64,000 bases of DNA from Mesohalobacter halotolerans (GTDB taxonomy: Bacteria > Bacteroidota > Bacteroidia > Flavobacteriales > Flavobacteriaceae): the NCBI RefSeq assembly GCF_006120725.1, contig NZ_SWMU01000001.1, forward strand, positions 372,001 through 436,000, given 5' to 3'. Positions within the stretch are counted from its first letter, which is position 1. Every line of letters starts with the position of its first letter. Made by a program: the position numbers and the translations under genes. Of the stretch, positions 10,253-26,509 are shown in pieces. A model generated the notes under the pieces. The model saw nothing but the letters and a program-made list of their open reading frames with translations. It was not told the origin of the DNA and searched no databases.

Positions 10253-10287
10253 AAATAGTCAAATTGGTAAAATTTCGTATAAATTAC

Positions 10288-10417
10288 ACCCAACTTGTTT
10301 GGCTATGATTTGTTTCGTGAAAATCTGCGAGGTTTTTCCTCCGTAACCGAAAGATAGTAAATTGCAATGAATTCCGATTAGGAATTCAGCCGCAATGAGC
10401 TATACACTTTGTTAGGC
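10288..10417 (-). repeat. attC-like site of cassette 24
   Basis: 130 nt, left core ACCCAAC and right core GTTAGGC, with a unique body. The right core should pair with the high-end core of cassette 24 (TACCAAC) but does not. The left core belongs to cassette 25 and equals that of cassette 11, the second ParDE unit. Confidence 0.75.
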
Positions 10418-10570
10418 ACTGGGCTTCACACGTCCTCTTTCAATACTTTTGTTCTTTAAATACTCTAAAATTTCCTCTTTAGTCATTTTCGAGAACATCT
10501 TATCCAATCTATCTTTTTGCTCTCGGGCAAACTTTACAGCATCAAATTTCTTTTTTGTTTTAGTTTCCAT
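10412..10570 (-). CDS. Small antitoxin-like protein downstream of PIN toxin (cassette 24)
   Basis: A 52-aa ORF starting METKTKKKFDAVKFAREQKD, highly charged, with the segment MTKEEILEYLKNKSIERGR. Its start overlaps the last codons of the PIN gene by 11 nt and its TAA stop is supplied by the attC core (GCCTAAC). Short proteins of this type (FDAVxxxR...MSxEEIxxYxKK) occur as partners of Bacteroidota PIN toxins, so it is probably the antitoxin. It lies after the toxin, not before it. Confidence 0.6.
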   Translation of the reverse strand: METKTKKKFDAVKFAREQKDRLDKMFSKMTKEEILEYLKNKSIERGRVKPSA

Positions 10571-11024
10571 ATTTCATTAATTCTCTTGGAGAGCGAATAT
10601 CCAATTGTTTATATCCATTTTTTAAATTTATAGAATTATAGCCTCGTATTCGCTCAACATTTACGATATGCTTAAAATTCCAACTTACAAGTAAGTCAGC
10701 CTGATATATCGTAGCAAGTGCGATATGTAAACAATCCGCATAACTTGTTTTTCCAACTACATTTTCGTCAATATATTCGGTCGCTAAACTTATAGCTTCA
10801 TCTTTATCTTTTAAAAATTCAGTAAAGCTATCATTTAAGTCAGCTAATAAATTCTTAATCCTTTCCGGTGCAAATTCCAATTCCTCATCTAGCATAGTTG
10901 ATATTAGGATTGTAAACTCACCGTTGCTTATTCTTTCAAACAAAGGTTTAGTCCATTCTTGAAATTCATCGTCATAATATCCTCCAAAAACTGAAGTGTC
11001 CAAATATATCCGCTGTTTTTTCAT
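10560..11024 (-). CDS. PIN-domain ribonuclease toxin, VapC-like (cassette 24)
   Basis: A 154-aa PIN-fold protein. The N-terminal RIYLDTSVFGGYYDDEF carries the first acidic residue, TSYADCLHIALATIYQADLLVSWNFKHI carries the central and C-terminal acidic residues, and IRGYNSINLKNGYKQLDIRSP is the Bacteroidota tail. VapC-type PIN proteins cleave RNA and act as toxins. The partner is probably the 52-aa ORF overlapping its 3' end. The family is certain; the toxin role is inferred. Confidence 0.85.
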   Translation of the reverse strand: MKKQRIYLDTSVFGGYYDDEFQEWTKPLFERISNGEFTILISTMLDEELEFAPERIKNLLADLNDSFTEFLKDKDEAISLATEYIDENVVGKTSYADCLHIALATIYQADLLVSWNFKHIVNVERIRGYNSINLKNGYKQLDIRSPRELMKYGN

Positions 11025-11087
11025 ATCACTAATTTACAAATTTTAGTGAGAAGTTCAATTTTAGCAGAATTATTTTTTCAGCCTTGT

Positions 11088-11222
11088 TACCAACGTCTCG
11101 CGCATAACATAAGTGGCGACTTAAAATGCACAAGTTTTTCGGTTAAACTTTTAATTCTCTAAAATACACAAACCTTTCATTTCAGCACCAAATCTCGCCA
11201 TTCTTGTTATGCGCTGTTAGCG
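11088..11222 (-). repeat. attC-like site of cassette 23 (the retroelement cassette)
   Basis: 135 nt, body family D (minus strand GCGCATAAC...GAGATTTGG), shared with the site at 27816. Right core GTTAGCG is the exact complement of the far core CGCTAAC at 15541-15547, which ties everything in between into one unit. The RT reading frame ends inside this site. Confidence 0.85.
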
Positions 11223-12430
11223 TTACGTTGTTTTTTAATTGGTCTTACTTTCAATATAAATTTTGCTATACCACCCGATAGGTACAGATGATTCCACCAA
11301 TAACCGTTTAAGTTTTTGAATAGCATACCTTTTCGTAGTTTATAAGTTTTGTAATGCTTCATTATACCCAAATACGAATTCATGCTACTTTGAAAAGCTT
11401 TTTGTTCTTCTTTTGTTGGTTTGTGGTCTATTGCTATTTCGTTTTGCTTTTCTATGGCGTTGTAAAAATTTCCTTTTGTACGATTAGCAATGTAAATCCT
11501 ATTGGGAAGTATTACAGTTCCTAAAAACTTCACTCCTTTGCTGTAATGTTGTAGATAAATTTTCTTTGGATGTATGGTAACTTGTAATTCGGTTTGCAGA
11601 TATTCCGATAATTTTGAAATAACTTTCTTTAAAAACTCTTTATCCTTATGCATTATCACAAAATCGTCAACGTATCTGCCGTAATAACGAATACCTAAAT
11701 CGTGTTTTACAAAATGGTCAAAGGTGTCCATGTAAAAGTTGGCAAATACTTGACTGGTTAAGTTGCCAATGGGTAAACCGCAATTGAGTTGACTATGAAA
11801 AAGGCTTTTGGTTTGGGGTAGATTATCCCAATCGCTTTTGTTTCCTTTTATGATGCAGTTTTTTGTTGGGTCGTTAAATATAATTTTCCTGCACAGTTTT
11901 AAAAGTAAATCCTTATCGGAATTTTTATATTTTTCACTTATAAATTGTTCTAGTTTTTTAAACAGAATATTTTTATTGATGCTCATAAAAAAGCCCTGCA
12001 AGTCGAGTTTTAGTATGTAGCAATCTTGAGTGTAATTAGCAGAACACTTCCGTATGAATTTATCAACACGCTGCACGCCAAAATGTGTTCCTTTTCCTAC
12101 ACGGCAAGAGTAGCTATCATGTATAAATTGCTTTTCAAACAGTTGATTGAGTTTGCCAATTACAAGATGATGCACCACTCTGTCTCTAAAATCTGCTGCA
12201 AATATTTCACGCTTTACGGGTTTATCGACTATAAAAGATATGGAACGACCTATTTGGTATGTACCGTTGTTTATTTCTTTGCAGAGTTGAACCAAATTAT
12301 GTTCATAATCTATTTCAAATGCAATGGCATTGGCGGTGTTTCGTTTATTGCTGCGGCAATTAAAATAAGCTTTAAAAAGTTCTGCAAGCTCAATTTTGGG
12401 GTGAGGTATATCGAAAAGTGATAATTGCAT
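11207..12430 (-). CDS. Reverse transcriptase of a diversity-generating retroelement (cassette 23)
   Basis: A 407-aa reverse transcriptase. Catalytic motif A is LKLDLQGFF (D143) and the core is RYVDDFVIMH (residues 252-261). LPIGNLTSQVFANFYMD (219-235) has the (I/L/V)GxxxSQ form typical of DGR reverse transcriptases, where group II intron enzymes have SP. There is no maturase or endonuclease domain. It copies the template RNA with errors at adenines and, with Avd, passes the cDNA to the variable region of the target gene. The last codons (NANSA, stop) are encoded by the attC site. Order target-VR-avd-TR-RT on one strand is canonical. Confidence 0.95.
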   Translation of the reverse strand: MQLSLFDIPHPKIELAELFKAYFNCRSNKRNTANAIAFEIDYEHNLVQLCKEINNGTYQIGRSISFIVDKPVKREIFAADFRDRVVHHLVIGKLNQLFEKQFIHDSYSCRVGKGTHFGVQRVDKFIRKCSANYTQDCYILKLDLQGFFMSINKNILFKKLEQFISEKYKNSDKDLLLKLCRKIIFNDPTKNCIIKGNKSDWDNLPQTKSLFHSQLNCGLPIGNLTSQVFANFYMDTFDHFVKHDLGIRYYGRYVDDFVIMHKDKEFLKKVISKLSEYLQTELQVTIHPKKIYLQHYSKGVKFLGTVILPNRIYIANRTKGNFYNAIEKQNEIAIDHKPTKEEQKAFQSSMNSYLGIMKHYKTYKLRKGMLFKNLNGYWWNHLYLSGGIAKFILKVRPIKKQRNANSA

Positions 12431-12446
12431 TTATTTGTTTTATAAA

Positions 12447-12476
12447 AACACTGCCGAGCAAACGCCCGACAGTGTT
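12447..12476 (-). ncRNA. Structured spacer hairpin between template repeat and RT
   Basis: On the minus strand AACACTG-T-CGGGC, loop GTTT, GCTCG-G-CAGTGTT folds into a 13-bp stem with one U-G pair beside the T/G step and a tetraloop. It lies 21 nt after the TR and 17 nt before the RT start. In the Bordetella phage DGR the RNA just downstream of TR is needed for cDNA priming; this hairpin is in the equivalent place (inference). Confidence 0.6.
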
Positions 12477-12497
12477 AATAAATGGTTTGTTTAAAAT

Positions 12498-12631
12498 CCC
12501 GAACAGCACGAACTCTATTTGTGTTGTTCTTATTGTTGTTGTTCTGATTGCCATTGTTGAAGTTCTGTTTCCAAGCGTTGTTGTTATTGTTCTCGGTAGA
12601 ACTCCAATAGTAGGCACTAGCAAAACCGCCA
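12498..12631 (-). repeat. DGR template repeat (TR)
   Basis: 134 nt matching the variable region at 13225-13358 without gaps. The two differ at 17 positions, all adenines on this (coding-sense) strand. Translated in the VR frame the centre reads STENNNNNAWKQNF and GNQNNNNKNNTNRV: strings of AAC/AAT codons, which adenine mutagenesis can turn into many residues but never into a stop. The 62-aa frame across it is not a gene. One further A-to-C difference lies just outside at 12497 versus 13224. Confidence 0.95.
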
Positions 12632-12814
12632 ACCGAAAAATAAAGGCGTTCATATAAATACAAGGCATCTCATATTTATTGTAGTATTACTCAAAAATGA
12701 ATTGCTCCATATCAAGTAACGCTCATTTTAACTGCTAAAAAGAGCAGTCCCTTTATCGCTTTTAAACTAAACCTTGCTCGCTTGTATATGCCTTAACACA
12801 TACAATTCCGGCAT

Positions 12815-13156
12815 TTACCTATTGGCATTACGCCAACCGGTAATTTGTTTGCCTATGCTATCCATTAAACCCGATAGCTCGGCTTGCTTTTTTATTGCTA
12901 AAATTTTCATATCCACACAAAGGCGTATTTCAAATTTTAGCAATTCAAAATCGTCTAAAAATGTTTCCAGATAAACAATTTTATCCTTTGCTTTATTGGC
13001 TCTATAAATACTTCTTACAAGCTGTATGGCATCTCGTTTCATATCTTGTCCCAAAGTATATTTGTACTCACGAGGAAACTCCTGCGTATATAAAAACACT
13101 TTTTGCACAAGTTTGTAAACATCCTTAAAAACTTGTAATTCGTAGTATAATGCCAT
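12815..13156 (-). CDS. avd: DGR accessory variability determinant Avd (cassette 23)
   Basis: A 113-aa, basic, all-helical protein (MALYYELQVFKDVYKLVQKV, FPREYKYTLGQDMKRDAIQLVRSIYRANKAKDK, YLETFLDDFELLKFEIRLCVDMKILAIKKQAEL). It has the four-helix pattern of Avd and the related 23S rRNA-intervening-sequence proteins. Avd forms a pentameric barrel that binds the RT and the template RNA. The ATG at 13156 is preferred to an in-frame TTG at 13160-13162, which abuts a 17-nt T tract. It lies between target and TR, as in most DGRs. Confidence 0.9.
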   Translation of the reverse strand: MALYYELQVFKDVYKLVQKVFLYTQEFPREYKYTLGQDMKRDAIQLVRSIYRANKAKDKIVYLETFLDDFELLKFEIRLCVDMKILAIKKQAELSGLMDSIGKQITGWRNANR

Positions 13157-13160
13157 ATTC

Positions 13161-13197
13161 AAAAAAAAAAAAAAAAATCGACCGCTCCGCGGATAAA
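13161..13197 (-). terminator. GC hairpin plus 17-nt T tract between VR and avd
   Basis: On the minus strand CCGC-GGA-GCGG, then TCGA and 17 T residues. It may be a weak intrinsic terminator limiting avd/RT expression, or the cruciform that in some DGRs lies just behind VR and aids retrohoming. A direct repeat AACAATTTATC (two copies, 13196-13220) stands between it and the target stop. The long homopolymer is unusual for the region. Confidence 0.45.
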
Positions 13198-13216
13198 TTG
13201 TTAAATAGATAAATTG

Positions 13217-14065
13217 TTAAAAAGCCCGAACAGCACGAACTCTATAAGTGAGGCTCTTATTGTAGAAGTTCTGAAAGCCATCGTTGAAGTTCTGTATCCA
13301 AGCGTTGGTGTTAACGAGCTCGGTAGAACTCCAATAGTAGGCACTAGCAAAACCGCCACCTCCGTTTGCCACTGCGGTAGCATCAATAGTTACCTTGTTT
13401 TGATACATTAAATTCAATTCTTCTTTTGAGGGAAGATACCAGTCGCCATAAGTTTTGCCACCTTCGGTAACTTGTAGCTCATTACAAATACGCGCTGCAT
13501 AAGTGCTGCCATCATCACCTATAGCAACTTGAGCTGCAATAATTATTGAGGTATTAGCTTCGCCTGCATATGGTCCATCTCCTTTGGCTTGCGTATTGCC
13601 GTAGGTGCCTGCATACCATCTTACTCCGGTGCTTTGGTCTTGTTTGGCACATACAAGACCGTGTTGTCCGGTTTCGTCCACCCAAAACACAATACCGCCA
13701 TGGGCAAAGTCGCCAACGGAATAGGTAGAACTTCCCATTTTTTTCCAGACATCATTTGGTGCATCGTAGTAGTAATAGCCCGTTGCGGTAATGTTGGCTG
13801 TTTGTGTTTTCGTAGAAGCGGTACTTACATCATTCACATACACGATTGCACCATCCTGGTCTGTACCATAAGCGTCAACTTTGGCATCTACTTCTGCTAA
13901 TGAAAGTGCTGGGGCTTGTATACCATCTGCGGTTGTTGTGGTTGCAGGGTCTCCTATTACTTGTAGTGTTGTTTTTGGTGTTGTTGTTCCAATTCCTATT
14001 TGAGCGTAAGAAACATTTAAAGCTAGTGTTAAAACTAGTGCTAAAAAAAATTTACTTTGTTTCAT
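13217..14065 (-). CDS. DGR target: secreted C-lectin-fold surface protein (cassette 23)
   Basis: A 282-aa protein with a signal peptide (MKQSKFFLALVLTLALNVSYAQ), then the GIGTTTPKTTLQVIG segment common at the start of flavobacterial surface proteins. From about residue 95 it has a C-type-lectin/formylglycine-enzyme-like domain (GGIVFWVDETGQHGLVCA, GDWYLPSKEELNLMY, FASAYYWSSTE, RVRAVRAF). The last 45 residues are the variable region, where template Asn codons read L, V, T, I, D, F, F, Y, S, L and Y. It probably binds a ligand outside the cell; the ligand is unknown. It is the first gene of the DGR operon. Confidence 0.9.
   Translation of the reverse strand: MKQSKFFLALVLTLALNVSYAQIGIGTTTPKTTLQVIGDPATTTTADGIQAPALSLAEVDAKVDAYGTDQDGAIVYVNDVSTASTKTQTANITATGYYYYDAPNDVWKKMGSSTYSVGDFAHGGIVFWVDETGQHGLVCAKQDQSTGVRWYAGTYGNTQAKGDGPYAGEANTSIIIAAQVAIGDDGSTYAARICNELQVTEGGKTYGDWYLPSKEELNLMYQNKVTIDATAVANGGGGFASAYYWSSTELVNTNAWIQNFNDGFQNFYNKSLTYRVRAVRAF
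13225..13358 (-). repeat. DGR variable region (VR)
   Basis: 134 nt at the 3' end of the target gene, matching TR except at 17 template adenines. In the 78-nt central stretch 17 of 41 template adenines are changed and none of the 37 other bases. The 3' end is identical over GAGTTCGTGCTGTTCGGG, the likely initiation-of-mutagenic-homology segment. The stop codon TAA follows a few bases on. Confidence 0.95.
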
Positions 14066-14220
14066 TTTTGTTTTAAATTAATGTAATTATTGTTAATAAT
14101 GTCTTTAGTTTTTGTATTATACTGATATAGGTTGACTGTTTTTAGTTATTATTTTGCCGTTCAAATGATTTTTTTTTAGCCGTTTAGAAGGCAAAAAAAT
14201 AATTTGAACTAATGTATTTT

Positions 14221-15180
14221 CTAAATTTTAAGTTCTGGTAAATTTACAGATTTTTTTCTGTATGATTTATATTTAATGTTTGGGTTTAAGTGAACCTCTT
14301 CTGGTTTTCTTAGATTAAGGCTAAAATGTGTTCTTAAGTTGTTGTAAATATATACAGCCTGATGGGTCATGTCTCTTGCTATGTCAGTGTTTTTAATGGT
14401 TTGCTTTAGTTCATATTCCTCTTTAAGAGTTCTGTTGATGCGTTCAGCCACAGCGTTTTCGTATGGGTCATATTGTTCTGTCATACTTATAGTGATGTTG
14501 TTGTTTTCTGCGAACTCTGTATATTTAGGGTTGCAATATTGAAACCCTCTGTCCGTATGATGAATGAGTTTTTTGTCTTTATATTTTCTATTTTTAATAG
14601 CCATAGCGAGCGCGTCTTTGCAAAGTGAGGTTCTCATATGGTTGTCGAGTTTGTATCCCATAATCTTCTTAGAATAAGCATCTGTGACTAAGGCGAGATA
14701 GTTGTGTCCGTATTGAGTTTTAATGTAAGTGATATCGCTTACCCAGAGTTGTTCAGGTCGAGTAGGGACTTGTTTTTTTACTATGTTTTTATATTTTTTG
14801 AACATATGTTTAGAATTAGTAGTTGTGATATAGTTTTTTGTTTTAGGAACCAGCAAGTTATTATGCCTTAAGAACCTGTAGAATTTGTCTCTGCCGATTT
14901 TGATATCTGCATCTACAAAGTCTTGTTTCAGTTCATTGTAAAGCTTTAATCCACCAGTTTTAGAACCAACTTTTTTACGATAGTTTTTGACTAACAGAAT
15001 TAGCTTTTGGTGGTCTATGCGTTGTTTTTCTTGTTGTTTGAGTCTTTTGTAGAAGGCTTGTTTAGTGATCCCAAAACATCCATAGAGCCATTTCCTTTTA
15101 TACGGTTTTTCTTCTTTAGCTCTATCTCTTTTGCTAATGTTTTGGGCAATGACTTTTTTGACATATCCACCCCTGTAATA
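14221..15180 (-). CDS. IS3-family transposase OrfB (DDE domain)
   Basis: Integrase-core transposase. The frame is open from about 15180 (YYRGGYVKKVIAQN), in the -1 frame relative to OrfA, and runs WLYGCFGITKQAFYKRLKQQ, then the DDE domain: D in WVSDITYIK, D in HHTDRGFQYC, E in AVAERINRTLKEE. There is no independent good start in the overlap, so it is probably made as an OrfAB fusion by -1 frameshifting, with GAAAAAC near 15108 as a candidate slip site. The stated start is approximate. It seems intact. Confidence 0.82.
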   Translation of the reverse strand, partial: YYRGGYVKKVIAQNISKRDRAKEEKPYKRKWLYGCFGITKQAFYKRLKQQEKQRIDHQKLILLVKNYRKKVGSKTGGLKLYNELKQDFVDADIKIGRDKFYRFLRHNNLLVPKTKNYITTTNSKHMFKKYKNIVKKQVPTRPEQLWVSDITYIKTQYGHNYLALVTDAYSKKIMGYKLDNHMRTSLCKDALAMAIKNRKYKDKKLIHHTDRGFQYCNPKYTEFAENNNITISMTEQYDPYENAVAERINRTLKEEYELKQTIKNTDIARDMTHQAVYIYNNLRTHFSLNLRKPEEVHLNPNIKYKSYRKKSVNLPELKI

Positions 15181-15473
15181 AGTTCCATATCAGCGATGAT
15201 GTCTTGCTGGAAGTCTTTTTGGAACTCGAGCTGTTCTATACGCTCTTTAAGCTTTTTGATTTGATTAAGTTTACTCATACCTGATTTTTGTTGTGCTAAG
15301 GTAGTGTAAATTCTCAACCAATAGTTGATAGTTGTTCTTGGAACATCATATTGTTTGGAGGCTTGATTTACGGAAATTTGTCCGTTAGTGATTTGACCAA
15401 CGACCAAAAGTTTGGTCTCTAAATTTACTTTTTGGTAGCTTTTTTTTCGCCAGTGTTCTTTTTTTGATTTCAT
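15015..15473 (-). CDS. IS3-family transposase OrfA
   Basis: A 152-aa protein with an N-terminal helix-turn-helix (INGQISVNQASKQYDVPRTTINYWLRIY is the relevant region, residues about 28-55). A leucine-rich coiled coil follows (KLNQIKKLKERIEQLEFQKDF), typical of IS3 OrfA. It binds the inverted repeats and joins OrfB through -1 frameshifting. It begins 30 nt inside the right terminal repeat. Confidence 0.88.
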   Translation of the reverse strand: MKSKKEHWRKKSYQKVNLETKLLVVGQITNGQISVNQASKQYDVPRTTINYWLRIYTTLAQQKSGMSKLNQIKKLKERIEQLEFQKDFQQDIIADMELITGVDMSKKSLPKTLAKEIELKKKNRIKGNGSMDVLGSLNKPSTKDSNNKKNNA

Positions 15474-15540
15474 AAGTGACTATAATTAATGGTTTAATTT
15501 TTAGTCAACCTATTTCAGGAAAGTACATTTTTACAATGAA

Positions 15541-15674
15541 CGCTAACGGTCCTGGTATATGGTTTGTGGCGAGGCAAACAAGCACTCACCATTCAATTAT
15601 TCATTTACTTTCAAAAGCATCAAAAACTTTCGGTTTAGCCCTTAACTCGCCATAAACTATATACCATGCTGCCA
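15541..15674 (-). repeat. attC-like site of cassette 22
   Basis: 134 nt. Left core CGCTAAC closes the DGR cassette; right core GCTGCCA is one base off the expected GTTGCCA but continues in register (GCTGCCATTA against TAATGGCAAC at 16334-16343). The body is its own variant, with arms around GGTATATGG and CTATATACC. Confidence 0.75.
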
Positions 15675-15710
15675 TTAGTACTTTTTTCAGAGTTTGATTT
15701 TTAGTCTGAT

Positions 15711-16034
15711 TTAGTCAACAAATGTTTCTTTAATTATACTTTTACAATTCGCTATTTCAGATTTCGTTAAACGGTCAAATCTTTTTAGTATTCGAGTTTT
15801 GTCAATTGTTCGAATTTGGTCAATCGCAATCATTCCATTTTTATTGTTATGTTTTACGCTTACTCTTGTCGGATATTTTTTTAAGTTAGTCGTCATTGGA
15901 GCAACAACGATAGTTTTTAAGAATTTGTTAATTTCATTTGGCGATAGAATCACGCAAGGGCGAGTTTTTTTAATTTCGCTTCCGATTGTTGGATCAAGAT
16001 TTACAAGAACAATTGAGTATTGTTTTAATTCCAT
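15711..16034 (-). CDS. MazF/PemK-type endoribonuclease toxin (cassette 22)
   Basis: A 107-aa PemK/MazF fold protein: YSIVLVNLDPTIGSEIKKTRPCVILSPNEINKF, TIVVAPMTTNLKKYPTRVSV, GMIAIDQIRTIDKTRILKRF. The conserved GSE(I)KKTRP and the DQIRT(I)D motif mark the sequence-specific mRNA interferase family. It overlaps the antitoxin gene by 10 nt, so the pair is translationally coupled. It ends 36 nt before the attC-like site. Confidence 0.92.
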   Translation of the reverse strand: MELKQYSIVLVNLDPTIGSEIKKTRPCVILSPNEINKFLKTIVVAPMTTNLKKYPTRVSVKHNNKNGMIAIDQIRTIDKTRILKRFDRLTKSEIANCKSIIKETFVD

Positions 16035-16270
16035 TCTTCGAAATTTTCATCATCAAAAACATCGTCTAATAATAAGTCATCATCATTATTAGCATTCATT
16101 TCTCTAAAAGCTTTTTCCCAATTATTTCTTGGCTTGTCGATGGGTTTTAATATTATTTGTCCCTTCTCCAAAATCATTTCGACTTTGTCTTTTATGTTGT
16201 ACTTTTCTAAAATAGTCTTGCTCAACCGAAGACCTTTTGAATTTCCGATTTTAATGATAGTTGTTTCCAT
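16025..16270 (-). CDS. MazE/AbrB-type antitoxin (cassette 22)
   Basis: An 81-aa protein with an N-terminal SpoVT/AbrB swapped-hairpin DNA-binding domain (IIKIGNSKGLRLSKTILEKYNIKDKVEMILEKGQIILKPI). Its acidic C-terminus (NANNDDDLLLDDVFDDENFEEW) would occupy the RNA-binding face of the toxin. A palindrome directly upstream is the likely operator. The gene order antitoxin-toxin is standard. Confidence 0.92.
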   Translation of the reverse strand: METTIIKIGNSKGLRLSKTILEKYNIKDKVEMILEKGQIILKPIDKPRNNWEKAFREMNANNDDDLLLDDVFDDENFEEWN

Positions 16271-16279
16271 GGATTATAA

Positions 16280-16293
16280 TTTGTAATTACAAA
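16280..16293. promoter_or_regulatory. MazE operator candidate
   Basis: Perfect 14-bp palindrome TTTGTAATTACAAA, 10 nt upstream of the mazE-like start. AbrB-type antitoxins bind such sites to repress their own operon. Confidence 0.55.
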
Positions 16294-16336
16294 GTAACAA
16301 CTTTTATTATATTCCGCAAAGTTTTTTCAGTATTAA

Positions 16337-16524
16337 TGGCAACGTCCGGGCTATATGTAGTGCGAGCCAAAAAAGCAAAAGCTTTTCAATTCAGCACCGA
16401 CCCAAGCGAACAATTTTTGATTTATATTTTTCAATTAATAAATATAAAAATTGTGAGCGAAAAAAATGCCTTAATCTTCGAATTTTGCCCAAAACCTCGC
16501 ATTATTTATAGCCTCATGTTGTGG
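16337..16524 (-). repeat. attC-like site of cassette 21
   Basis: 188 nt, long body family C (GTAGTGCGAGCC ... CGCATTATTTATAGCCTCATG). Left core TGGCAAC closes cassette 22; right core GTTGTGG is the complement of CCACAAC at 18513. The 300-nt gap between genes here is filled by this repeat. Confidence 0.82.
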
Positions 16525-16571
16525 TTAGTTTTTAAGTATTAGATATCAACATGTAACTTCCACCTTTACCA

Positions 16572-17051
16572 TTATTGTTCAATTTTTAAATTAATCATAT
16601 CTTTTAGATAGGCTGGCTTATATGGTTTACTATTTCCTTTAGTATAAAAAGGATCTATAAAATAGGAAGTGATTTTGGATGTCGAATCAATGACCATTAT
16701 ATTAAGATGAATATCAGTTTTTAATAAATATGCTTTTTCTTTTTTTCTTAATATAATACCGTTTTTTAAACTAGAATCATTCGCTTTTACAATTTTAAAT
16801 TTATTATTATTATTCTTAATTGATATGCGATAGTCCTCATTTATTTCTTGACAATAACCAATTAATATGCTCGTATCTTGCTCGAAGTCCTTTTTATTCA
16901 AAATTGAATATTTTAATAATACATCTTCAATAGGTTTTTGTTTTAAAAACATATCATCAGAAAATTTTGATAAAATTTCAATATCATTTCTATTTTTTGA
17001 TTTACAGCTAACTAGTAATGTCAACAATATGATTAAAAAAGTATTTTTCAT
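16572..17051 (-). CDS. Small lipoprotein, possible partner of the papain-like lipoprotein (cassette 21)
   Basis: A 159-aa protein with a lipoprotein signal (MKNTFLIILLTLLVSCKSKN). The rest is a lysine- and asparagine-rich domain with no recognised family. It follows the 465-aa lipoprotein after 12 nt in the same cassette and is probably co-translated. Given the toxin-like C-terminus of that neighbour, an immunity role is possible, but nothing in the sequence proves it. Confidence 0.6.
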   Translation of the reverse strand: MKNTFLIILLTLLVSCKSKNRNDIEILSKFSDDMFLKQKPIEDVLLKYSILNKKDFEQDTSILIGYCQEINEDYRISIKNNNNKFKIVKANDSSLKNGIILRKKEKAYLLKTDIHLNIMVIDSTSKITSYFIDPFYTKGNSKPYKPAYLKDMINLKIEQ

Positions 17052-17063
17052 TTTTCATTTTTT

Positions 17064-18461
17064 TTATTCTGAATTTCCTGGACTAGTACCACCTGTAGTA
17101 ATTCCTGTTGCTTGACCACTTGATATTAAACTCCTTAAAACTTGCCCCAATGTGCCTGGATTTGAACCTCCTCCTAAGTACCAATTATTGGAAGCATCAC
17201 CAAAATCCAAATCTGTTATAGCCCCTACATCAATTACAAAATCTGTACAGTTTTTATCGTTTAAATTATAGTTACCGCTTTCGTATTGCTTGGCTAGGTT
17301 AATTATTGCTTGTATTTTTGTACCTGTAACATTTTTAGATATATTAACATCATATTCGGTCAAGGAATTATCCCCAAATATACCTGGTTCTGTTGGTGCA
17401 GTTGGTTTTGATGTACCATCAGGATAAAAACCAAAAGATCTGATTTTATTACCTTGTTTAATTGTAATAAATGAATGGCCAACATTAAAACCACTGTTTG
17501 GTTCATTTTGGTTTGCTATAGGTTGATCTACATTAAAAAATATTGTTGCATCCTGACTTGTATCAAATATAGATAAGAACGATTCAATACTATCAATACG
17601 AATATCTGGACCATCCAAGGTAAAAATACTATCTAGAAGTAATACATTATTATTACCACTATTTAAGCAATCTTCATTTAAAGTCGGGTCTAGTGTTAAG
17701 CTATCCTCACATGGTATTAATGGTACCGTACCAGGAGATACTGAACCATTTCCATTACCACCACCACCTCCATTAGTATCAACTGATAAATCAATTAATT
17801 CATCGGTAGTTTCAGTTACACTTGGAACATGATTACAAACATAATTTGATGATGGAATCCAATTGCTTAGACCATGATTATCACAAGCTGGATTATCGCT
17901 ATTAAAACCTCCATGGTTAGAGCACATTCTTAATGTGTATGTGGTTACCCAACCACAGCTCCATGATTTATTGTTTAAGTTGTTTTGATTCCATAGTTCT
18001 TGAATGTTTCCTTCATATTCTGTTTTAACAACATTAGCATTAAGATGAAGATTATCATTTACTTCTTTATAATGGCCATTCAAGTATTTTATTATATATC
18101 CCCTTACTGTATCATTAACTTTCTCAACAACTAAATTTTCAATTATACTATCATTTGAACTATTTTTCTCAATCAAAAATGTAAATGATTTGTTATTCTG
18201 ATTTTCGAGTTTATAGAAGTAATCAAAATTTATATTTAAACTGTCATTACTTTTAAATTTGTTGTCAATTTGCTTTTCAAGTTCAAAGTCTTTTATGATA
18301 GAATTAAAATCCATATCTTTTTGAGCCTCTTTCAAACTTAACAGCTGAGGCTCAATATTTGTTTCATGATTAGTGATTTCATCATTAAACTCCTCTTGTT
18401 CACAGCCTATTAACAGGTTTAAAACCATAAATAAGCAAAAAATGTGATTGATTTTTTTCAT
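17064..18461 (-). CDS. Large lipoprotein with C-terminal papain-like (GHSF / NCTDF) domain (cassette 21)
   Basis: A 465-aa protein with lipobox LLIGCEQE (Cys about 20). A middle part holds a cysteine-rich segment (SWSCGWVTTYTLRMCSNHGGFN) and a glycine linker. The C-terminal domain from about residue 290 carries GFNVGHSFITIKQ, GFYPDGT, NLNDKNCTDFVIDVG and GGGSNPGTLGQVLRSL. The His in GHSF and Cys in NCTDF are placed as in permuted papain-like hydrolases seen at the C-terminus of bacterial surface and toxin proteins. It is anchored to the membrane, probably surface-exposed. A role as peptidase, amidase or toxin is inferred. Confidence 0.65.
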   Translation of the reverse strand: MKKINHIFCLFMVLNLLIGCEQEEFNDEITNHETNIEPQLLSLKEAQKDMDFNSIIKDFELEKQIDNKFKSNDSLNINFDYFYKLENQNNKSFTFLIEKNSSNDSIIENLVVEKVNDTVRGYIIKYLNGHYKEVNDNLHLNANVVKTEYEGNIQELWNQNNLNNKSWSCGWVTTYTLRMCSNHGGFNSDNPACDNHGLSNWIPSSNYVCNHVPSVTETTDELIDLSVDTNGGGGGNGNGSVSPGTVPLIPCEDSLTLDPTLNEDCLNSGNNNVLLLDSIFTLDGPDIRIDSIESFLSIFDTSQDATIFFNVDQPIANQNEPNSGFNVGHSFITIKQGNKIRSFGFYPDGTSKPTAPTEPGIFGDNSLTEYDVNISKNVTGTKIQAIINLAKQYESGNYNLNDKNCTDFVIDVGAITDLDFGDASNNWYLGGGSNPGTLGQVLRSLISSGQATGITTGGTSPGNSE

Positions 18462-18512
18462 CTTTTTTAAATATTAAAGTTAATATTAGTTTTAAGTTGA
18501 GTTATAAATTAA

Positions 18513-18710
18513 CCACAACGGTTTCGGCTATGCGTAGTGCGGGGCAAAAAAGACAAAGCCTTTCAATTCAGCACTAACCCAAGCGAGCGATTTTCTATTT
18601 ATAAATTTCATTGTTTAAATATATCCCGAAATTTCGGGACGAGCGAAAAAAATGCCTAAGCCTTCAAATTCAACCCATAATCCCGCATTACTTATAGCCT
18701 CGTGTTGTGG
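18513..18710 (-). repeat. attC-like site of cassette 20
   Basis: 198 nt, body family C with a 10-nt insertion creating the palindrome TCCCGAAATTTCGGGA (18624-18639). Left core CCACAAC closes cassette 21; right core GTTGTGG pairs with CCACAAC at 19404. Confidence 0.85.
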
Positions 18711-18721
18711 TGCGTTTTTAA

Positions 18722-19006
18722 TCACACTGACATTGGTTTCACGTTAATTTGTCCGCCTATTGCCCTCAATACTTTCATTATTGTTTCGAATTGTGGTTTC
18801 GCGCCGTCAGATAAAGCCTTGTATAGACTTGGTCGGCTCATTCCTGTTTTTTCTGCAATTTTAGTCATCCCAATTGATTTGGCTATATGTCCAATTGCAA
18901 CAATTAAATCAGAGCTATTTCCGTCTTCAAGAACTGTATTTAAGTATTCAGCTATCATTTCTTCGCTGTCCAAATAGTCCGCTATGTCAAATTTTGTTGT
19001 TTCCAT
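18722..19006 (-). CDS. HTH addiction-module antidote, HigA-like (cassette 20)
   Basis: A 94-aa protein of the addiction-module antidote family: YLDSEEMIAEYLNTVLEDGNSSDLIVAIGHIAKSIGMTKIAEKTGMSRPSLYKALSDGAKPQFETIMKVLRAIG. The helix-turn-helix is IAEKTGMSRPSLYKALS. It follows the toxin gene by 1 nt. Such proteins repress the operon and bind the RelE-like toxin. Confidence 0.92.
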   Translation of the reverse strand: METTKFDIADYLDSEEMIAEYLNTVLEDGNSSDLIVAIGHIAKSIGMTKIAEKTGMSRPSLYKALSDGAKPQFETIMKVLRAIGGQINVKPMSV

Positions 19007-19007
19007 T

Positions 19008-19310
19008 TCAGTTGTTTTTTATTCTATTCCAAATTTTTTTAGCTTTTTCAATATCTTTTTGTTGAGTTGATTTCTCGCCACCGATAAGAAGTATAACAAG
19101 TTTAGTTTCCTTATTTTTAAAATAAACTCGATATCCTTTTGCGTAATTAATTCTCATTTCGCTTATTCCATCTCCCACAGGTTTACAGTCTCCGTAATGT
19201 TCATCAGTTTCAAGTTTCTGAATCCGAAAGAGTATTTTAGATTTAGCGCGAATGTCTTTGAGTTTTCTTATCCACTTATCAAATTCAGTTGTCTTCTCTG
19301 TTATTACCAT
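19008..19310 (-). CDS. RelE/HigB-family addiction-module killer toxin (cassette 20)
   Basis: A 100-aa RelE-fold protein: FDKWIRKLKDIRAKSKILFRIQKLETDEHYGDCKPVGDGISEMRINYAKGYRVYFKNKETKLVILLIGGEKSTQQKDIEKAKKIW. It has the GDGISEMRI, GYRVYF and LLIGGEKSTQ blocks of the killer family. The toxin precedes the antitoxin. A -7 box (19335-19342) is upstream. Confidence 0.93.
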   Translation of the reverse strand: MVITEKTTEFDKWIRKLKDIRAKSKILFRIQKLETDEHYGDCKPVGDGISEMRINYAKGYRVYFKNKETKLVILLIGGEKSTQQKDIEKAKKIWNRIKNN

Positions 19311-19318
19311 TTATAAAA

Positions 19319-19342
19319 TGTATTCACTTAGATACAAATATA
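19319..19342 (-). promoter_or_regulatory. Promoter and operator candidate of the cassette 20 toxin-antitoxin operon
   Basis: Minus-strand TATATTTG (19335-19342) matches TAnnTTTG. An inverted repeat TGTAT...ATACA (19319-19336, 8-nt spacer) follows it just before the start at 19310. The cassette therefore carries its own promoter. Confidence 0.55.
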
Positions 19343-19403
19343 AACAATAATTTAGATTAGAAGAAGTAGATTTGGTATATTCATTAGATTCGCTGTAAAT
19401 GCA

Positions 19404-19541
19404 CCACAACGGGAAGTGTATGATTCAGTGGCGACCAAAACAGCACAGTCCTTATTTTTTCAGTCGTAAAAGTAGCAAAAAATCCCAGACTTTTCGATTC
19501 AACTCCCAAACCTAAGCCATTGATTATACACATTGTTACCT
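19404..19541 (-). repeat. attC-like site of cassette 19
   Basis: 138 nt, body family B (arms GTGTATGATTCAGTGGCG and AGCCATTGATTATACAC). Left core CCACAAC closes cassette 20; right core GTTACCT is the complement of AGGTAAC at 19911. Confidence 0.82.
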
Positions 19542-19910
19542 ACAGCGGTCGAGTTTCTCAGGATCATTAGCTGAAAAAGCCTAAGCCTTTCGAGCCCATT
19601 TTTTTTCATTCAGCACGCCGATTCAGCAGTCAATTTAGTTTTAGTCAACTTCAATCGCAAAATTGCTAATTCAGTCGTCTTTAGCGATTCAGCCGACGGA
19701 TAAGTTCAGTATTCCAATTCAGTTGCAAGTTTGTCTTTCAGCCGTGATTTGGCAAATTCAGTCGCAAAAGTGCGTTTAGTTCAGTTCAATTTCGGATTTG
19801 TCATTCAGTTGGAATTAAGCAAAATCAGTCGTAAAAATGCAATTCAGTCAAATACCAATATTAAAAAAATGGGCTTTCCCGAACCTTTAAAAATAGATTT
19901 TTGTAGTTGT
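19542..19910. other. Gene-less cassette 19, rich in ATTCAGT and attC-interior motifs
   Basis: About 370 nt with no convincing gene on either strand. It contains roughly a dozen copies of TTCAG(T/C). Among them are imperfect copies of the conserved inner segment of the attC-like repeats (TCAATCGTAAAATTAGC): TCAATCGCAAAATTGCTAA near 19651, TTCAGTCGCAAAAGTGCG near 19758 and TCAGTCGTAAAAATGCAA near 19826. The unit ends match perfectly (GTTACCT / AGGTAAC), so it is a genuine cassette. Confidence 0.65.
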
Positions 19911-20045
19911 AGGTAACGGTCTGGCTATGCACAGTGGCGTGCAAAAAAGCACTTTCGTTATTTTTTCAATCGTAAAATTAGCAAAAAAAAACGAACCTTT
20001 CATTTCGGCCCAAACACAAGCCATTGTGTATAGCTATTGTTACCC
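19911..20045 (-). repeat. attC-like site of cassette 18
   Basis: 135 nt, body family A (GGCTATGCACAGTGGCGTGC with CCATTGTGTATAGC). Left core AGGTAAC closes cassette 19; right core GTTACCC pairs with GGGTAAC at 20665. Confidence 0.86.
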
Positions 20046-20055
20046 AATGTTATTT

Positions 20056-20658
20056 TCACACTCTGAAATTTTCGAGTATGAATTGATAATCAGTATTTTC
20101 CTCATTAACTATTGCAATTGAAAACGTATTAATTCCAATTGTAATTAAGTATTGAGTCAAATATTTAGTTTCATCAGCACTTATCTGTTGGAATTTAACC
20201 TTAATTACTTTAGTTTTTCCATAAGTCAAAAATTCTTTTTCAGTTATTTTATTTTGAATATTATATTCAGTCGACTGATTTGAAATTTGGTTTTTTAAAA
20301 CTTCAACATATGATTTTAGTACATTTTTATCAAGCTTCACATATTTTCCCGACATAAACGTTATTGTATTCAAATAGTTATTCTCATCAGCAAAAACCTC
20401 AAATTCGTGACCAAAATTTTGTAGCATGATGTTTTTTTGATGAGCAGACTTAATTAGTGAATCATTATGCTCGCCTTTTTTAATAAAATCAAGTATATCT
20501 TCAAAAGTTGTTTTTTCATAATTATTAGGAAGGCTTATTTTACGTTTTAAAAATTCAATTTGGAAAGTATTTGTTTGTTTAAATTCTGCTGGAAGTTTTT
20601 TTTTATCTTTTTTACAAGACAGAAAAATAATTAATATTAGAAGCAGGATTTTTTTCAT
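20056..20658 (-). CDS. Lipoprotein of unknown function (cassette 18)
   Basis: A 200-aa protein with lipobox (LLILIIFLSCKKDKK, Cys about 15). A soluble domain of mixed beta and alpha segments follows (FLKRKISLPNNYEKTTFEDILDFIKKGEHND, KTKVIKVKFQQISADETKYLTQYLITIGINTFSIAIVNEE). It resembles the small PsbP-like lipoproteins that assemble bulky beta folds, but the match is too weak to name. It is the only gene of its cassette and ends 11 nt from the attC-like site. Confidence 0.7.
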   Translation of the reverse strand: MKKILLLILIIFLSCKKDKKKLPAEFKQTNTFQIEFLKRKISLPNNYEKTTFEDILDFIKKGEHNDSLIKSAHQKNIMLQNFGHEFEVFADENNYLNTITFMSGKYVKLDKNVLKSYVEVLKNQISNQSTEYNIQNKITEKEFLTYGKTKVIKVKFQQISADETKYLTQYLITIGINTFSIAIVNEENTDYQFILENFRV

Positions 20659-20664
20659 AATATT

Positions 20665-20852
20665 GGGTAACGTTTGGGCTATAAGTAGTGCGGGGCAAAA
20701 AAGCTAAAGCCTTTCAATTTAGCACAAACCCAAGCGAGCGATTTTCTATTTATAAATTTCATTGTTTAAATATACAAATTGCGAGTGAAAAATACGCTCA
20801 AGCTATCAAATTCAGCCAATAATCCCGCATTACTTATAGCCTCGTGTTGTGC
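20665..20852 (-). repeat. attC-like site of cassette 17
   Basis: 188 nt, body family C without the palindrome insertion. Left core GGGTAAC closes cassette 18; right core GTTGTGC pairs with GCACAAC at 21404. Confidence 0.85.
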
Positions 20853-20860
20853 GTAGGTTT

Positions 20861-21394
20861 TTATTCAATTTTATTCAGTTCAATTGCGTTTGGACTTTGC
20901 GAAAATCCACTCAATGTATTATTATAAAAATACATAGTCTCTTGCATACTTGTCAGCTTTAAACTGTCTCCAACTTTTTTGTGCATTCCGACTGTAATTA
21001 ATGAATCTTTTAATTCAGATATGACTTCGTCGATTCCAAAAGTGTTTGGATTTCTTTCAATTCCTAATACAAATTTTCTGTTCTCAATTTGAAAACTGTA
21101 TTCAGTTGATGAATATGGATGATTTTCAATCCAGCTATTCCAGAAAAATAAAAAAATCCAATAACAGATTATTGTGTTTGCAAAGAACAAAATCGAAAGT
21201 CTTTTTCTAAAAAAGAAAATAATAATTCCAATCAGAATATTAACTCCAAATATTTTAAGTCTGTACGATTCAACTCCAACAGACATAAATGGGTCGGGTT
21301 TAATATTACTAATGCAATATTTCATTAGGAAAATATCGATTAGCAAAATCAGAACTCCAATTCCGACTAATGCTTTTGTTTCAGATTTCGTCAT
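20861..21394 (-). CDS. Membrane protein with three transmembrane segments (cassette 17)
   Basis: A 177-aa protein. Hydrophobic segments are ALVGIGVLILLIDIFLMKYCI (about 8-28), LKIFGVNILIGIIIFFF (46-62) and LSILFFANTIICYWIFLFFW (66-85), followed by a soluble 90-residue domain. No family is recognised. It is the only gene of the cassette, 8 nt from the repeat. Confidence 0.7.
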   Translation of the reverse strand: MTKSETKALVGIGVLILLIDIFLMKYCISNIKPDPFMSVGVESYRLKIFGVNILIGIIIFFFRKRLSILFFANTIICYWIFLFFWNSWIENHPYSSTEYSFQIENRKFVLGIERNPNTFGIDEVISELKDSLITVGMHKKVGDSLKLTSMQETMYFYNNTLSGFSQSPNAIELNKIE

Positions 21395-21403
21395 TCAACT
21401 TAC

Positions 21404-21534
21404 GCACAACGGTCTAGGCTATGCGTAGTGCGGGATTTCAAGGCACTTACCTTTCAATTTTGCCCTTAGTTTATTTAATGTATTTACTTTCATATCAGCA
21501 CTTTCGCCCGCATTACGTATAGCCATTGTTGTGC
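21404..21534 (-). repeat. attC-like site of cassette 16 (R-M cassette)
   Basis: 131 nt, a shortened variant of body family C (GCTATGCGTAGTGCGGG ... CCCGCATTACGTATAGCC). Left core GCACAAC closes cassette 17; right core GTTGTGC pairs with GCACAAC at 26369, 4.8 kb away. Confidence 0.82.
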
Positions 21535-21629
21535 GGTCGTACTTCTTTTTCGGTCGTGTTTTAGCGCTGGCGTGAAAGCTCTTTGCAACCGCAGGAACGA
21601 GGATTGCAATGTGCTTGAACTTGCGTTGG

Positions 21630-23303
21630 CTATTGTAATTCATATTCCTTAAAATCATTTAGAATTTCCTTTAAACTCTCATCTTCTTTATGTTTAGCTA
21701 AAATCAATTTTTCGTCTTTCGTGATAAAGGTTTTTCCGTTTATTTTCCTAAAGTGCTTTTCAACAAAGGTTTCAAAATCCTTTTTTTCATATTCATAAAA
21801 TTCAAATTCGGATTTCTTATTTGAAAAGAACTCAATAAAGTTATTTCTAAACTTGTTTTTAATTTCTTTTCTAAATTTTTCAATTGTCATATTTCCGAAC
21901 TGAGAATATGCTTTTAAAACATATAGAAAATTGATTTTGTATTGATGTACAAAAAGAGTATCTCTGTCAAACAAGCGGTCGGCAAAATGGAATGATTTTA
22001 CAATATCTCCTTTTTCATCAAGCTCACTCGTTTCAAAGTTTTTATAGTTGTTTACATAGCCGTAAATGAAGAAGTTTGGGGTAATGTTATAACCTTCTGT
22101 GATTTTATCTCGATACCTTAAATTCTCTGTGTAATAGTTTCCTGTTTCATTCAGTAAGTCAATATTATACTGAATCACATTTTTAGCGTAAGTAAATTGT
22201 TTGTACTTAGATACTTTACCAGCGGTGTTGTCTGATTTGTAATACTTTGAGTCTCCAATGTAAAAAATATCGCTAGTATCTAATAACGATTGATAATCGA
22301 AAATATGGTCGATTATTTTTCCATCATCATTGTATTTTAGATGTTTTAAGGTTGTTCCATCTTCCGTCTTTTTCTCAATTATTGGGTCTGAAAAAAGCTT
22401 GTCAATCATATCTTCAAAAACAAGATTATAATTGTTTACAGAAATAAATTCTTCTTTCTTTTTTTTGATGCTACTTGTATTCGTTTGAGAAAAATATATT
22501 TCACACAAATGATACATTTTTCTTAATGTGTCATCGAAGTACCTATATTTTATTTTTCGCAGTTTACTTAACCCAATTTTTTGTAAAAGCTCGAATTTTC
22601 TGCCTTTTATTAGTGTGTAAGATTTGTCAATAGTGAGGAATAGATTATGTTCTTTATTAAAGTGATTGAGTATTGAAAAGAAGTAAATTAATAGTTCTTC
22701 TTCGTTATTTAGGACTTTCTTTTTATTACGATATATGTTATAAATGGGTTGTTTATCCTGCGTTAAGAGAGGAACAGATTTTCTAATTGTCTTTTCCCAA
22801 TTTGGATTTTTAACTTGCTGTGATTTATATTCAATATGTTTAAACAGAATTTGATTTTTATTCTTTTTGTAAAAGTTCACAAAAGTTAAAAGCAAATCCA
22901 AAAAGGAATATTCCTGCTCATTTATATTTGTGTTTAATGTTGCTGATAGTGAACTTTGTAAAATGCCAGATTGCTTGTTTCTTCTTTTAAACTCTAATAA
23001 GCTGTTATAAAAATATACTGATGTTTGTCTTATCCAGTTATATTCTGCTTTATGTTTAAAGGTTTCTTTGATATCAATGTTAAATAGGACATTTTTATTT
23101 ATACCAAAAACAGTGTTTGCGCTGTCTGCCATAAAAACTTTGGGCAACATATATACCAATTCGCCTTTCTCATAAGAATGATAATAGCCGACTGAAATAA
23201 TAGTACCAGCACCACTGCCATCTTCATGATAGAACTTAGAGTCGGCAAATGTCTTCCTAAGTTCTTTGAGCGTATATGTTTCCCCTTCAATTAGGATTTT
23301 CAT
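21630..23303 (-). CDS. LlaJI/McrC-family restriction endonuclease subunit (cassette 16)
   Basis: A 557-aa protein. The N-terminal region (GSGAGTIISVGYYHSYEKGELVYMLPKVF) and the C-terminal nuclease region match the LlaJI restriction family, relatives of McrC. The PD-(D/E)xK-type core is visible as KIIDHIFDYQSLLDTSDIFYIGDSKYYK (residues about 330-358). In LlaJI and McrBC this subunit cuts DNA when driven by the AAA+ partner. Its start overlaps the end of the McrB-like gene by 4 nt. With the methylase and HTH gene it forms a complete R-M operon within one cassette. Confidence 0.82.
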   Translation of the reverse strand: MKILIEGETYTLKELRKTFADSKFYHEDGSGAGTIISVGYYHSYEKGELVYMLPKVFMADSANTVFGINKNVLFNIDIKETFKHKAEYNWIRQTSVYFYNSLLEFKRRNKQSGILQSSLSATLNTNINEQEYSFLDLLLTFVNFYKKNKNQILFKHIEYKSQQVKNPNWEKTIRKSVPLLTQDKQPIYNIYRNKKKVLNNEEELLIYFFSILNHFNKEHNLFLTIDKSYTLIKGRKFELLQKIGLSKLRKIKYRYFDDTLRKMYHLCEIYFSQTNTSSIKKKKEEFISVNNYNLVFEDMIDKLFSDPIIEKKTEDGTTLKHLKYNDDGKIIDHIFDYQSLLDTSDIFYIGDSKYYKSDNTAGKVSKYKQFTYAKNVIQYNIDLLNETGNYYTENLRYRDKITEGYNITPNFFIYGYVNNYKNFETSELDEKGDIVKSFHFADRLFDRDTLFVHQYKINFLYVLKAYSQFGNMTIEKFRKEIKNKFRNNFIEFFSNKKSEFEFYEYEKKDFETFVEKHFRKINGKTFITKDEKLILAKHKEDESLKEILNDFKEYELQ

Positions 23304-24958: not shown

Positions 24959-24959
24959 A

Positions 24960-25994: not shown

Positions 25995-26184
25995 TGCTTT
26001 TACTTTTTAATAGTTCTTTTACGTCTACAGATAAAATGTCTGCAATAGTATACAAGTCTTCTAAACTCGGCTGTCTCACGTTACGAGCATATTCGTTAAT
26101 CGTGTTATAACTCTTTCCTGTCTGTTTGGCAAGCCAAGTCTGCGAAATTCCTTTGTCTTTTAAAACTTCTTTTATTCGGTTCAT
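25987..26184 (-). CDS. Controller-type XRE helix-turn-helix protein of the R-M system (cassette 16)
   Basis: A 65-aa protein: INRIKEVLK-type start, GISQTWLAKQTGKSYNTINEYARNVRQPSLEDLYTIADILSVDVKELL, a Cro/C1-type HTH. Small C proteins of this size time the expression of R-M genes. It leads the operon. An inverted repeat CACTA-N5-TAGTG lies 47-61 nt upstream. Confidence 0.88.
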   Translation of the reverse strand: MNRIKEVLKDKGISQTWLAKQTGKSYNTINEYARNVRQPSLEDLYTIADILSVDVKELLKSKSNV

Positions 26185-26501: not shown

Positions 26502-26509
26502 AACGTTTT

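Follow-up and report, generated by a model that had tools for sequence, protein, structure and literature searches.

A complete diversity-generating retroelement as the probable cargo of a cassette in an integron-like array of Mesohalobacter halotolerans

The genome of the flavobacterium Mesohalobacter halotolerans carries a diversity-generating retroelement (DGR) that very probably forms the cargo of a single cassette within an integron-like array on the chromosome. Both lie in the 64,000-nucleotide stretch analysed here (RefSeq assembly GCF_006120725.1, contig NZ_SWMU01000001.1, positions 372,001 to 436,000), called the window below, and positions refer to it unless another locus is named (Table 1). 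Judged by its sequence, the DGR is complete and was once active. It lies between two attC-like hairpin sites, on the same strand as the rest of an array headed by a tyrosine recombinase gene, and its two ends pair with each other. The preliminary description of this DNA knew of no earlier report of a DGR carried in an integron-type cassette, and none was found in the open-licence literature of PubMed Central (PMC), subscription papers and preprints being outside the scope of this search.

The DGR was first described as a target gene with its variable repeat (VR), avd, a template repeat (TR) and the reverse transcriptase (RT) gene in canonical order on one strand, and this minus-strand order is borne out by profile matches to Lcl_C, bAvd and RVT_1. 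The RT, Avd and target frames are all open and the TR is present. Adenine-specific divergence between TR and VR is the signature of DGR mutagenesis, and the two repeats differ at 19 of 139 aligned columns, every time at a TR adenine (51 of the 139 template bases are adenines). The same holds for 17 of 18, 15 of 15 and 20 of 20 mismatches in the related loci L098, L071 and L063, respectively. The RT contains a YVDD motif and the motif IGNLTSQ, which we read as DGR-type; the libraries used gave no match to a model specific for DGR RTs, and the best NCBIfam match, to a group II intron RT model, lay far below its cut-off (98.8 of 300 bits). The bAvd and Lcl_C matches both exceed their cut-offs, and the match of Avd to NF033474 stays below its own (67.6 bits, cut-off 80). 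Lcl_C, which we take to be a C-type-lectin-like domain, forms the C-terminal domain of a target protein whose start, judged by eye, looks like a signal peptide.

The unit that holds the DGR is part of an array of attC-like sites. A covariance model, R1, was derived from ten palindromes of the window; its stem has 18 pairs, nine of which show compensatory double changes across the ten sites, and its spacers are unequal. Between 11.1 and 40.4 kb the model matched 23 minus-strand sites at E ≤ 4e-4, the ten training sequences and 13 others, and a 24th, degenerate site (10286-10421) that R1 does not match was recognized by eye only. Three weaker plus-strand matches (E 0.004-0.013) coincide with these palindromes; two further matches in the window, both partial and marginal (E 0.59 and 0.88), were taken as chance. 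In the rest of the genome, where 150 of 4911 candidates were scored, R1 matched four times on contig C4 (543953-560764; E 3e-7 to 0.013) and once more marginally and partially. At gathering scores Rfam returned a single tRNA in the window and no family on the hairpins. All ten training sites have an A.C mismatch in the stem (columns 24/140), and the consensus shows no clear bulge of the canonical kind. Many hairpin sites of one orientation at the 3' ends of genes are a feature of integron arrays, and all 24 sites have one orientation. In every one of the 24 units the longest frame starting with ATG is on the array's strand; its stop falls within the site or at most 30 nt from the AAC in 16 of them, and three units have no frame longer than 36 aa. 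The genes include toxin-antitoxin members, namely PemK (15711-16034), ParD (9967-10215) and PIN (10560-11024). Two related ParD/ParE-like cassettes, at 9741-10215 and 31446-31986, share the start tag GTTGGGTGTA.

Pairing between the two ends of each unit was assessed by comparing the seven nucleotides after the GTT at its start with the seven before the AAC at its own end. These tags are exact reverse complements in 21 of 24 units, match at 6/7 in two more (a large unit at 21530-26375 and the DGR unit) and reach 3/7 in the PIN unit, whereas the ends and starts of different units gave no exact pair among 552 and six at 6/7. The preliminary description had granted the DGR the same end-matching as every other cassette; at a threshold of 6/7 this stands for 23 of the 24 units, with the DGR's own pair one position short of exact and the PIN unit as the exception. 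A start that matches its own end is expected of a circular intermediate, and the exact own-end tags fit cassettes that pass through a closed circle, where start and end would form one stem. In relatives (six genomes searched again, 18 stretches fetched, plus L098), consecutive sites had exact tags in 57 of 118 pairs and tags matching at 6/7 or better in 87, the corresponding numbers among 13,806 cross pairs being 74 and 292. These counts leave out pairs that lack a tag and include a few pairs twice, owing to the overlap of L153 with L154 and of L157 with L158. As a rule the hairpin moves with its unit, because 13 of 15 same-tag duplicate pairs within the genomes G101 and G471 keep the hairpin (identity 0.93-1.0), the other two having identities of 0.67 and 0.76. 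The idea that hairpins are generally supplied by the host was rejected on this ground; one G101 pair speaks for it, with the same tag and 97% identity over 653 nt and yet hairpins that are no more alike than background (0.67). No same-tag duplicate pairs were found between genomes.

The borders of the DGR unit follow from these sites. GTTAGCG at 11216-11222 and CGCTAAC at 15541-15547 had been noted as its bounds, and both are present. The second marks the start of the unit, which is also the R' box of the preceding, PemK-cassette site; the start GTTAGCGTTC (15547) pairs with the unit's own end TAACGCTAAC (11218). Position 11216, the end given in the preliminary description, is not the end of the cassette: by analogy with integrons a cassette includes its own hairpin site, and for this reason the end was moved to about 11094. 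The unit is then 4.45 kb long, or about 3.07 kb without its insertion sequence (IS), instead of the 2.9 kb first proposed. The RT stop (11207-11209) does fall inside the attC-like site, as had been described, and the duplex energy of this hairpin (-20.4) is below the minimum of 330 control stretches (-16.8). The heptamer alone proves nothing, because it is not enriched in the window (five seen, 3.4 expected); CGCTAAC is also scattered over the genome at 75 places, 41 forward and 34 reverse. Heptamer counting was dropped as evidence, and the hairpin model and the tag pairing were used in its place.

Table 1. Coordinates of the DGR, its cassette, the array and the recombinase in the window, and of the related DGR in locus L098
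Feature	Position	Strand	Evidence or remark
DGR cassette	11094..15547	-	begins at the GTT of the R' box upstream and ends at the R' box of its own attC-like site
attC-like hairpin site of the DGR cassette	11087..11221	-	R1 108.4 bits, E 2e-20; training sequence
DGR reverse transcriptase, 407 aa	11207..12430	-	RVT_1 1e-21; phrog_1423 reverse transcriptase 9e-95
Template repeat TR	12492..12630	-	19/19 mismatches to VR at A
Avd accessory protein	12815..13162	-	bAvd PF22296 1e-22; phrog_3206 Avd 2e-23
Target gene	13217..14065	-	Lcl_C C-terminal domain, PF07603 2e-13
Variable repeat VR, 3' end of target	13219..13357	-	aligned to TR
IS3-family insertion	14127..15513	-	1387 bp; NF033516 transpos_IS3; orfA 15015-15473, orfB 14221-15189
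attC-like site of the preceding (PemK) cassette	15540..15673	-	R1 69.8 bits, E 2e-12; non-training
Array of 24 attC-like sites	10286..40375	-	23 by model R1 at E ≤ 4e-4, 1 by eye
attI-like insertion point	41673..41682	-	start of first cassette; exact match to the end tag of the first cassette
Tyrosine recombinase, 589 aa	41715..43484	-	PF00589 1.5e-44
L098 partner gene	8006-8476		Por_Secre_tail
L098 target	8485-9264		
L098 Avd	9327-9686		followed by TR
L098 RT	9956-11170		

At the head of the array stands the gene of a tyrosine recombinase whose C-terminal part is XerA/IntI-like and catalytic, lacks the IntI insert, and follows an N-terminal extension of about 300 aa; no Pfam family matched its first 291 residues at E ≤ 10. 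A HARP-like reading of this N terminus, suggested by resemblance only, is not claimed. The first cassette starts at an attI-like point 33 nt past the recombinase stop, and an attI beside the recombinase gene is a further feature of integrons. Exact start tags were found behind the recombinase at four of five array heads, at +33 nt in the window, +31 in L159, +131 in L157 and +369 in L160; at the fifth, L154, which has a gap of 8.6 kb, there were one-mismatch places only. Recombinase homologues (E 3e-52 to 2e-46) lie upstream of an array and on its strand at five loci in four relatives: L157 from the same genus, L154 and L160 both from genome G220, L159 and L148. L152 and L160 also contain weaker homologues, which lie on the opposite strand; no homologue was found at E ≤ 1e-8 in L149-L151, L155, L156 and L161, which are mostly short whole contigs. 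A near-full-length relative of the recombinase (44% identity) is present in one of 295 other genomes of the order (E ≤ 1e-75); shorter forms head other arrays. A homologue (38%, E 2e-52) also occurs at 8871-9701 of L090, on a contig with another Bacteroidales DGR RT. In the window the recombinase gene adjoins sucB (43589-44863), and the DGR of L077 lies beside a sucB-like gene (2-1300; other strand, by eye); this neighbourhood is possibly a conserved chromosomal spot.

DGRs related to that of the window were collected in an RT-alignment scan, from which the best 80 of 93 relatives, 36-84% identical over the best segment, were retained. Elsewhere in Bacteroidota, too, attC-like repeats accompany related RTs, a point that the preliminary description had proposed to check. 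According to R1, five loci have a site directly at the 3' end of the RT and on its strand: L092 (E 7e-12), L068 (4e-4), L064 (0.003), L069 (0.016) and L066 (0.054); the remaining matches near RT loci were three in L098 and two in L115 (not at the RT end), and none of these ten lay in a record from outside Bacteroidota. A structure scan independent of R1 covered 56 of 81 sequences (L063-L107, L109-L117, L137 and the window), leaving out L108 and the more distant L118-L142 except L137; two of those scanned, L078 and L088, have almost no 3' flank. It added L071 and, weakly, L063. Duplex energies were -19.0 for both L064 and L071, -17.6 for L069, -16.4 for L068, -15.2 for L066, -13.8 for L092 and -13.3 for L063; the controls averaged -8.0, with 5% and 1% points at -13.7 and -15.4.

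The ends of these units are conserved to a degree that their surroundings are not. The end CAACGAAACGCTAAC is present in L063, L068, L071, L077 and L092, is altered at one position in the window and in L064, and is truncated in L065; L066 and L069 end in CACCGAAATGCTAAC. The ends GTTAGC(G/A)TTCA and CAACGAAACGCTAAC recur around related DGRs and most of the sequence beyond them differs, so that homologous DGRs sharing flanks beyond the cores, which would have spoken against a cassette, were not seen. Ends are kept and flanks changed in the window, L071, L063 and L065, and the hairpin behind the 15-nt end mostly differs between hosts, L068 and L069 sharing one. A matching start was found upstream in the window (6/7), L071 (GTTAGCGTTC, 6/7), L063 (GTTAGCATTC, 5/7) and L098 (7/7); a full hairpin site, recognized by eye, stands before that of L063, and L065 keeps an L063-type start and has lost its downstream site. 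In L064, L066, L068 and L069 the contig is too short upstream for a search of the start tag.

The clearest counterpart is L098 of Psychroserpens burtonensis DSM 12212, where a complete DGR lies between two attC-like sites on the opposite strand (7657-7788 and 11212-11345). Its tags match exactly (7/7), and its TR and VR show 18 differences, 17 of them at template adenines. The opposite orientation, together with the distant place of this RT in the tree, indicates a separate capture of a DGR by a cassette. The tag search over the RT loci allowed several candidate ends per locus and reached up to 7 kb upstream, and it gives chance matches; the exact tag was kept for L098 only, where both tags coincide with sites that the model detected; many one-mismatch tags over the RT loci were set aside.

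Several observations weigh against the cassette interpretation or limit it. The PIN unit (10413-11094), which follows the DGR, breaks the tag rule at 3/7. Because this cassette fails the rule and the last site is degenerate, the distal end of the array (10286-11094 and 9741-10215) is judged to be decaying. By eye, the site of the PIN unit is a degenerate, hybrid-looking hairpin; in the last ParDE unit (9741-10215) no site was seen and the toxin frame is shortened. The DGR unit's own tag is one mismatch short of exact, and the R'' box of the PemK-cassette site before it is mutated, with AGC in place of AAC. Since the preceding site carries this change and the array end is decaying, the present-day mobility of the DGR unit may be weak, and the IS between cassette start and target may affect expression. 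Among the relatives, L111 (-15.1), L104 (-13.7) and L085 (-13.2), which were not called cassettes, equal L066, L092 and L063 in duplex energy, so the latter three rest on the end motif, supplemented by R1 for L066 and L092. L077 has the end motif, but its hairpin was seen by eye only and went undetected in the structure scan. No start tag was found in L077 or L092, although the contigs reach past the target, and exact tags in L065, L068 and L091 do not lie at unit ends and were set aside as chance matches or local repeats. L070 and L072, from the same RT clade, showed no such site in the structure scan, and a 59%-identical DGR of the same family (G188/L099) had no site match. Finally, the array may shuffle and transfer the DGR unit, as first proposed; no excision, circle or transfer was observed.

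These points bear unequally on the other explanations of the locus. If the DGR were an ordinary chromosomal one, the flanking palindromes would be unrelated intergenic repeats such as terminators or REP-like elements. The wide occurrence of R1-like palindromes would suit this (matches at E ≤ 0.001 in 210 of 249 family genomes, the window's own included, as raw model matches from a strictly filtered search that scored 13 candidates per genome), as would the lack of heptamer enrichment and the related DGRs in G188/L099, L070 and L072 that have no sites. Unrelated repeats would hardly produce 21 exact tag pairs out of 24 against none in 552, nor a one-strand array in which all main frames run in one direction and the RT stop lies inside a site. 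Similar unit ends with other flanks in other hosts, exact tags around an inverted DGR, and a recombinase with an attI-like start at the array heads also contradict this explanation, which we consider very improbable. A transposon-like unit with 10-bp terminal inverted repeats (GTT-N7 ... N7'-AAC), whose hairpin belongs to the target or the host, is likewise improbable, if less markedly so. It would account for the inverted ends, for a DGR end (CAACGAAACGCTAAC) that is kept while the hairpin mostly differs between hosts, and for the G101 duplicates with unlike hairpins; however, most same-tag duplicates keep their hairpin, and the tag varies from unit to unit, whereas transposon ends are fixed.

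A canonical IntI integron with ordinary attC sites, overlooked by surveys, deserves slightly more credit and is still unlikely. The layout of attI, cassettes and attC sites agrees with it, as do the 18-pair hairpin with unequal spacers and the recombinase's top NCBIfam match, TIGR02249 (226 bits), and passages of PMC8618304 count Bacteroidota among the phyla with integrons. Yet the match is below the cut-off of 265 bits and consists of two stretches that leave profile positions 178-241 unmatched, and it is unspecific, because TIGR02249 gives matches below cut-off in 14 of 14 control genomes; other matches in the present genome are weaker, at 80 bits or less. The alignment with Vibrio IntI4 (146 bits) has no counterpart to IntI4 residues 177-247, and the best match in the PDB is the archaeal XerA-like protein 4a8e (163 bits). 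PMC4792948 describes a 20-residue domain, I2, as one that only integron integrases have. By the TIGR02249 and IntI4 alignments the recombinase lacks this insert. Attachment sites of IntI have the consensus RYYYAAC for R'' and GTTRRRY for R', and each of these boxes was present in five of the 24 sites. As far as can be read from the DNA, the platform works like an integron but lacks two tested features of IntI integrons, and it is not a canonical IntI integron.

The preferred interpretation, a DGR carried as a cassette of an integron-like array, can be set beside known systems. Sedentary chromosomal integrons, for example those of Vibrio, consist of IntI, attI and arrays of attC cassettes. The window has in common with them a large one-strand array, small accessory genes including toxin-antitoxin genes, hairpins at gene 3' ends and an insertion point beside a tyrosine recombinase. 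Unlike them, it has a recombinase without the IntI insert that reads in the direction of the cassettes, an attI-like point behind the stop of the recombinase gene, matched 7-nt tags in place of RRRY, and an A.C mismatch in the stem. The catalytic part of the enzyme is similar to XerA/XerCD-type recombinases, 4a8e being the closest; in contrast to these, it heads a cassette array and has some 300 extra N-terminal residues. With other DGRs that combine Avd with an Lcl_C target, the window DGR shares the RT, Avd, TR, a VR in the 3' end of the target and the adenine-specific divergence, and it differs from them in being packaged as a cassette that has paired end tags and a hairpin site of its own. 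Phages, plasmids and transposons are the DGR vectors named in passages of PMC10907252, and an excerpt of PMC3521204 contains the speculation that a Vibrio DGR near Tn7 might co-opt an integron system. Treponema denticola has an integron and DGRs in one species; the passages of PMC4891356 on this organism use the integron repeats as species tags only and place no DGR in a cassette.

The distribution of the RT was explored with a tree of the 75 sequences, out of 81 (80 loci plus the window), that had 300 or more aligned residues. The tree was built quickly and leaves many forks open; its cassette labels were assigned by us, including that of L077, which was judged by eye. Seven changes of the cassette label are needed, at least four of which are forced by starred branches. 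The window RT belongs to a starred clade of 11 rows, seven of them labelled as cassettes; the other four are the remnant L065, L067, in which the RT end is followed by unrelated sequence (by eye), and L070 and L072. Records in the clade carry the names Chitinophagaceae, Bacteroidales, Crocinitomicaceae, Marinilabiliaceae or unclassified Bacteroidetes. A search of 26 other genomes of the genus (some incomplete) did not find the RT, which is present in three of 249 family genomes, the window's own included. Among 57 phage and 35 plasmid records matched, no RT relative reached 60% identity (best listed 46% and 38%); viral contigs gave one RT locus at 45%; a phage or plasmid as the recent vehicle of the RT clade is unsupported by these searches. 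Because the RT was not found in these congeners and no close relative turned up among the phage and plasmid records, its distribution fits an arrival with a cassette, although a plasmid or phage not represented in these records might also have brought it.

Some of the related DGRs, not all (G188/L099), are cassettes, and their presence in Bacteroidota cassettes suggests a new way of travel between species. We also lean, with less assurance than for the window itself, towards a broader proposal: Bacteroidota, or at least Flavobacteriaceae, would own a second, IntI-free integron-like system with a XerA-type recombinase, an attI behind the recombinase's own stop, hairpin sites, and matched 7-nt tags private to each unit. 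In this proposal DGRs would be recurrent cassettes, acquired repeatedly and in either orientation, and the system would be the main vehicle of this DGR clade across families and orders. It would escape surveys that rely on IntI and canonical attC models.

The proposed pathway begins with the hairpin of the DGR cassette, which would fold as single-stranded DNA and be joined by the array-head tyrosine recombinase to the attI-like site behind the recombinase's own gene. An excised or transferred circle would carry the target, Avd, TR, RT and hairpin together, and a diversifying system could in this way be inserted in one step. DGRs in general diversify their targets by retrohoming, and the inserted element would then act on its target in the same manner. 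If this is correct, mutator, template and target form a portable cassette, a self-diversifying binder can be acquired in one recombination step, and DGRs have a further vehicle of spread beside phages, plasmids and transposons. An integron-like platform that works without the IntI insert would also turn recombination of folded single-strand sites without I2 into a directly testable question.

The IS3-family element within the cassette has perfect 11-bp terminal inverted repeats (ATAGGTTGACT), shows no clean target duplication at its borders, and is the only match to this element in the genome. It fills the space between the start of the DGR unit and the target, a place that in L063, L071 and L098 is occupied by a partner gene. 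This gene encodes a small protein with a Por_Secre_tail match in L063 (1856-2356) and L098, and was recognized by eye in L071; the IS may have replaced such a partner before the target of the window. In genome G101 an IS3-like element (by eye) likewise interrupts an array, which at about 76 kb (G101:C1:72500-152800, L144-L148) includes at least 42 attC-like sites and repeated identical cassettes, with a recombinase of 401 aa at its head.

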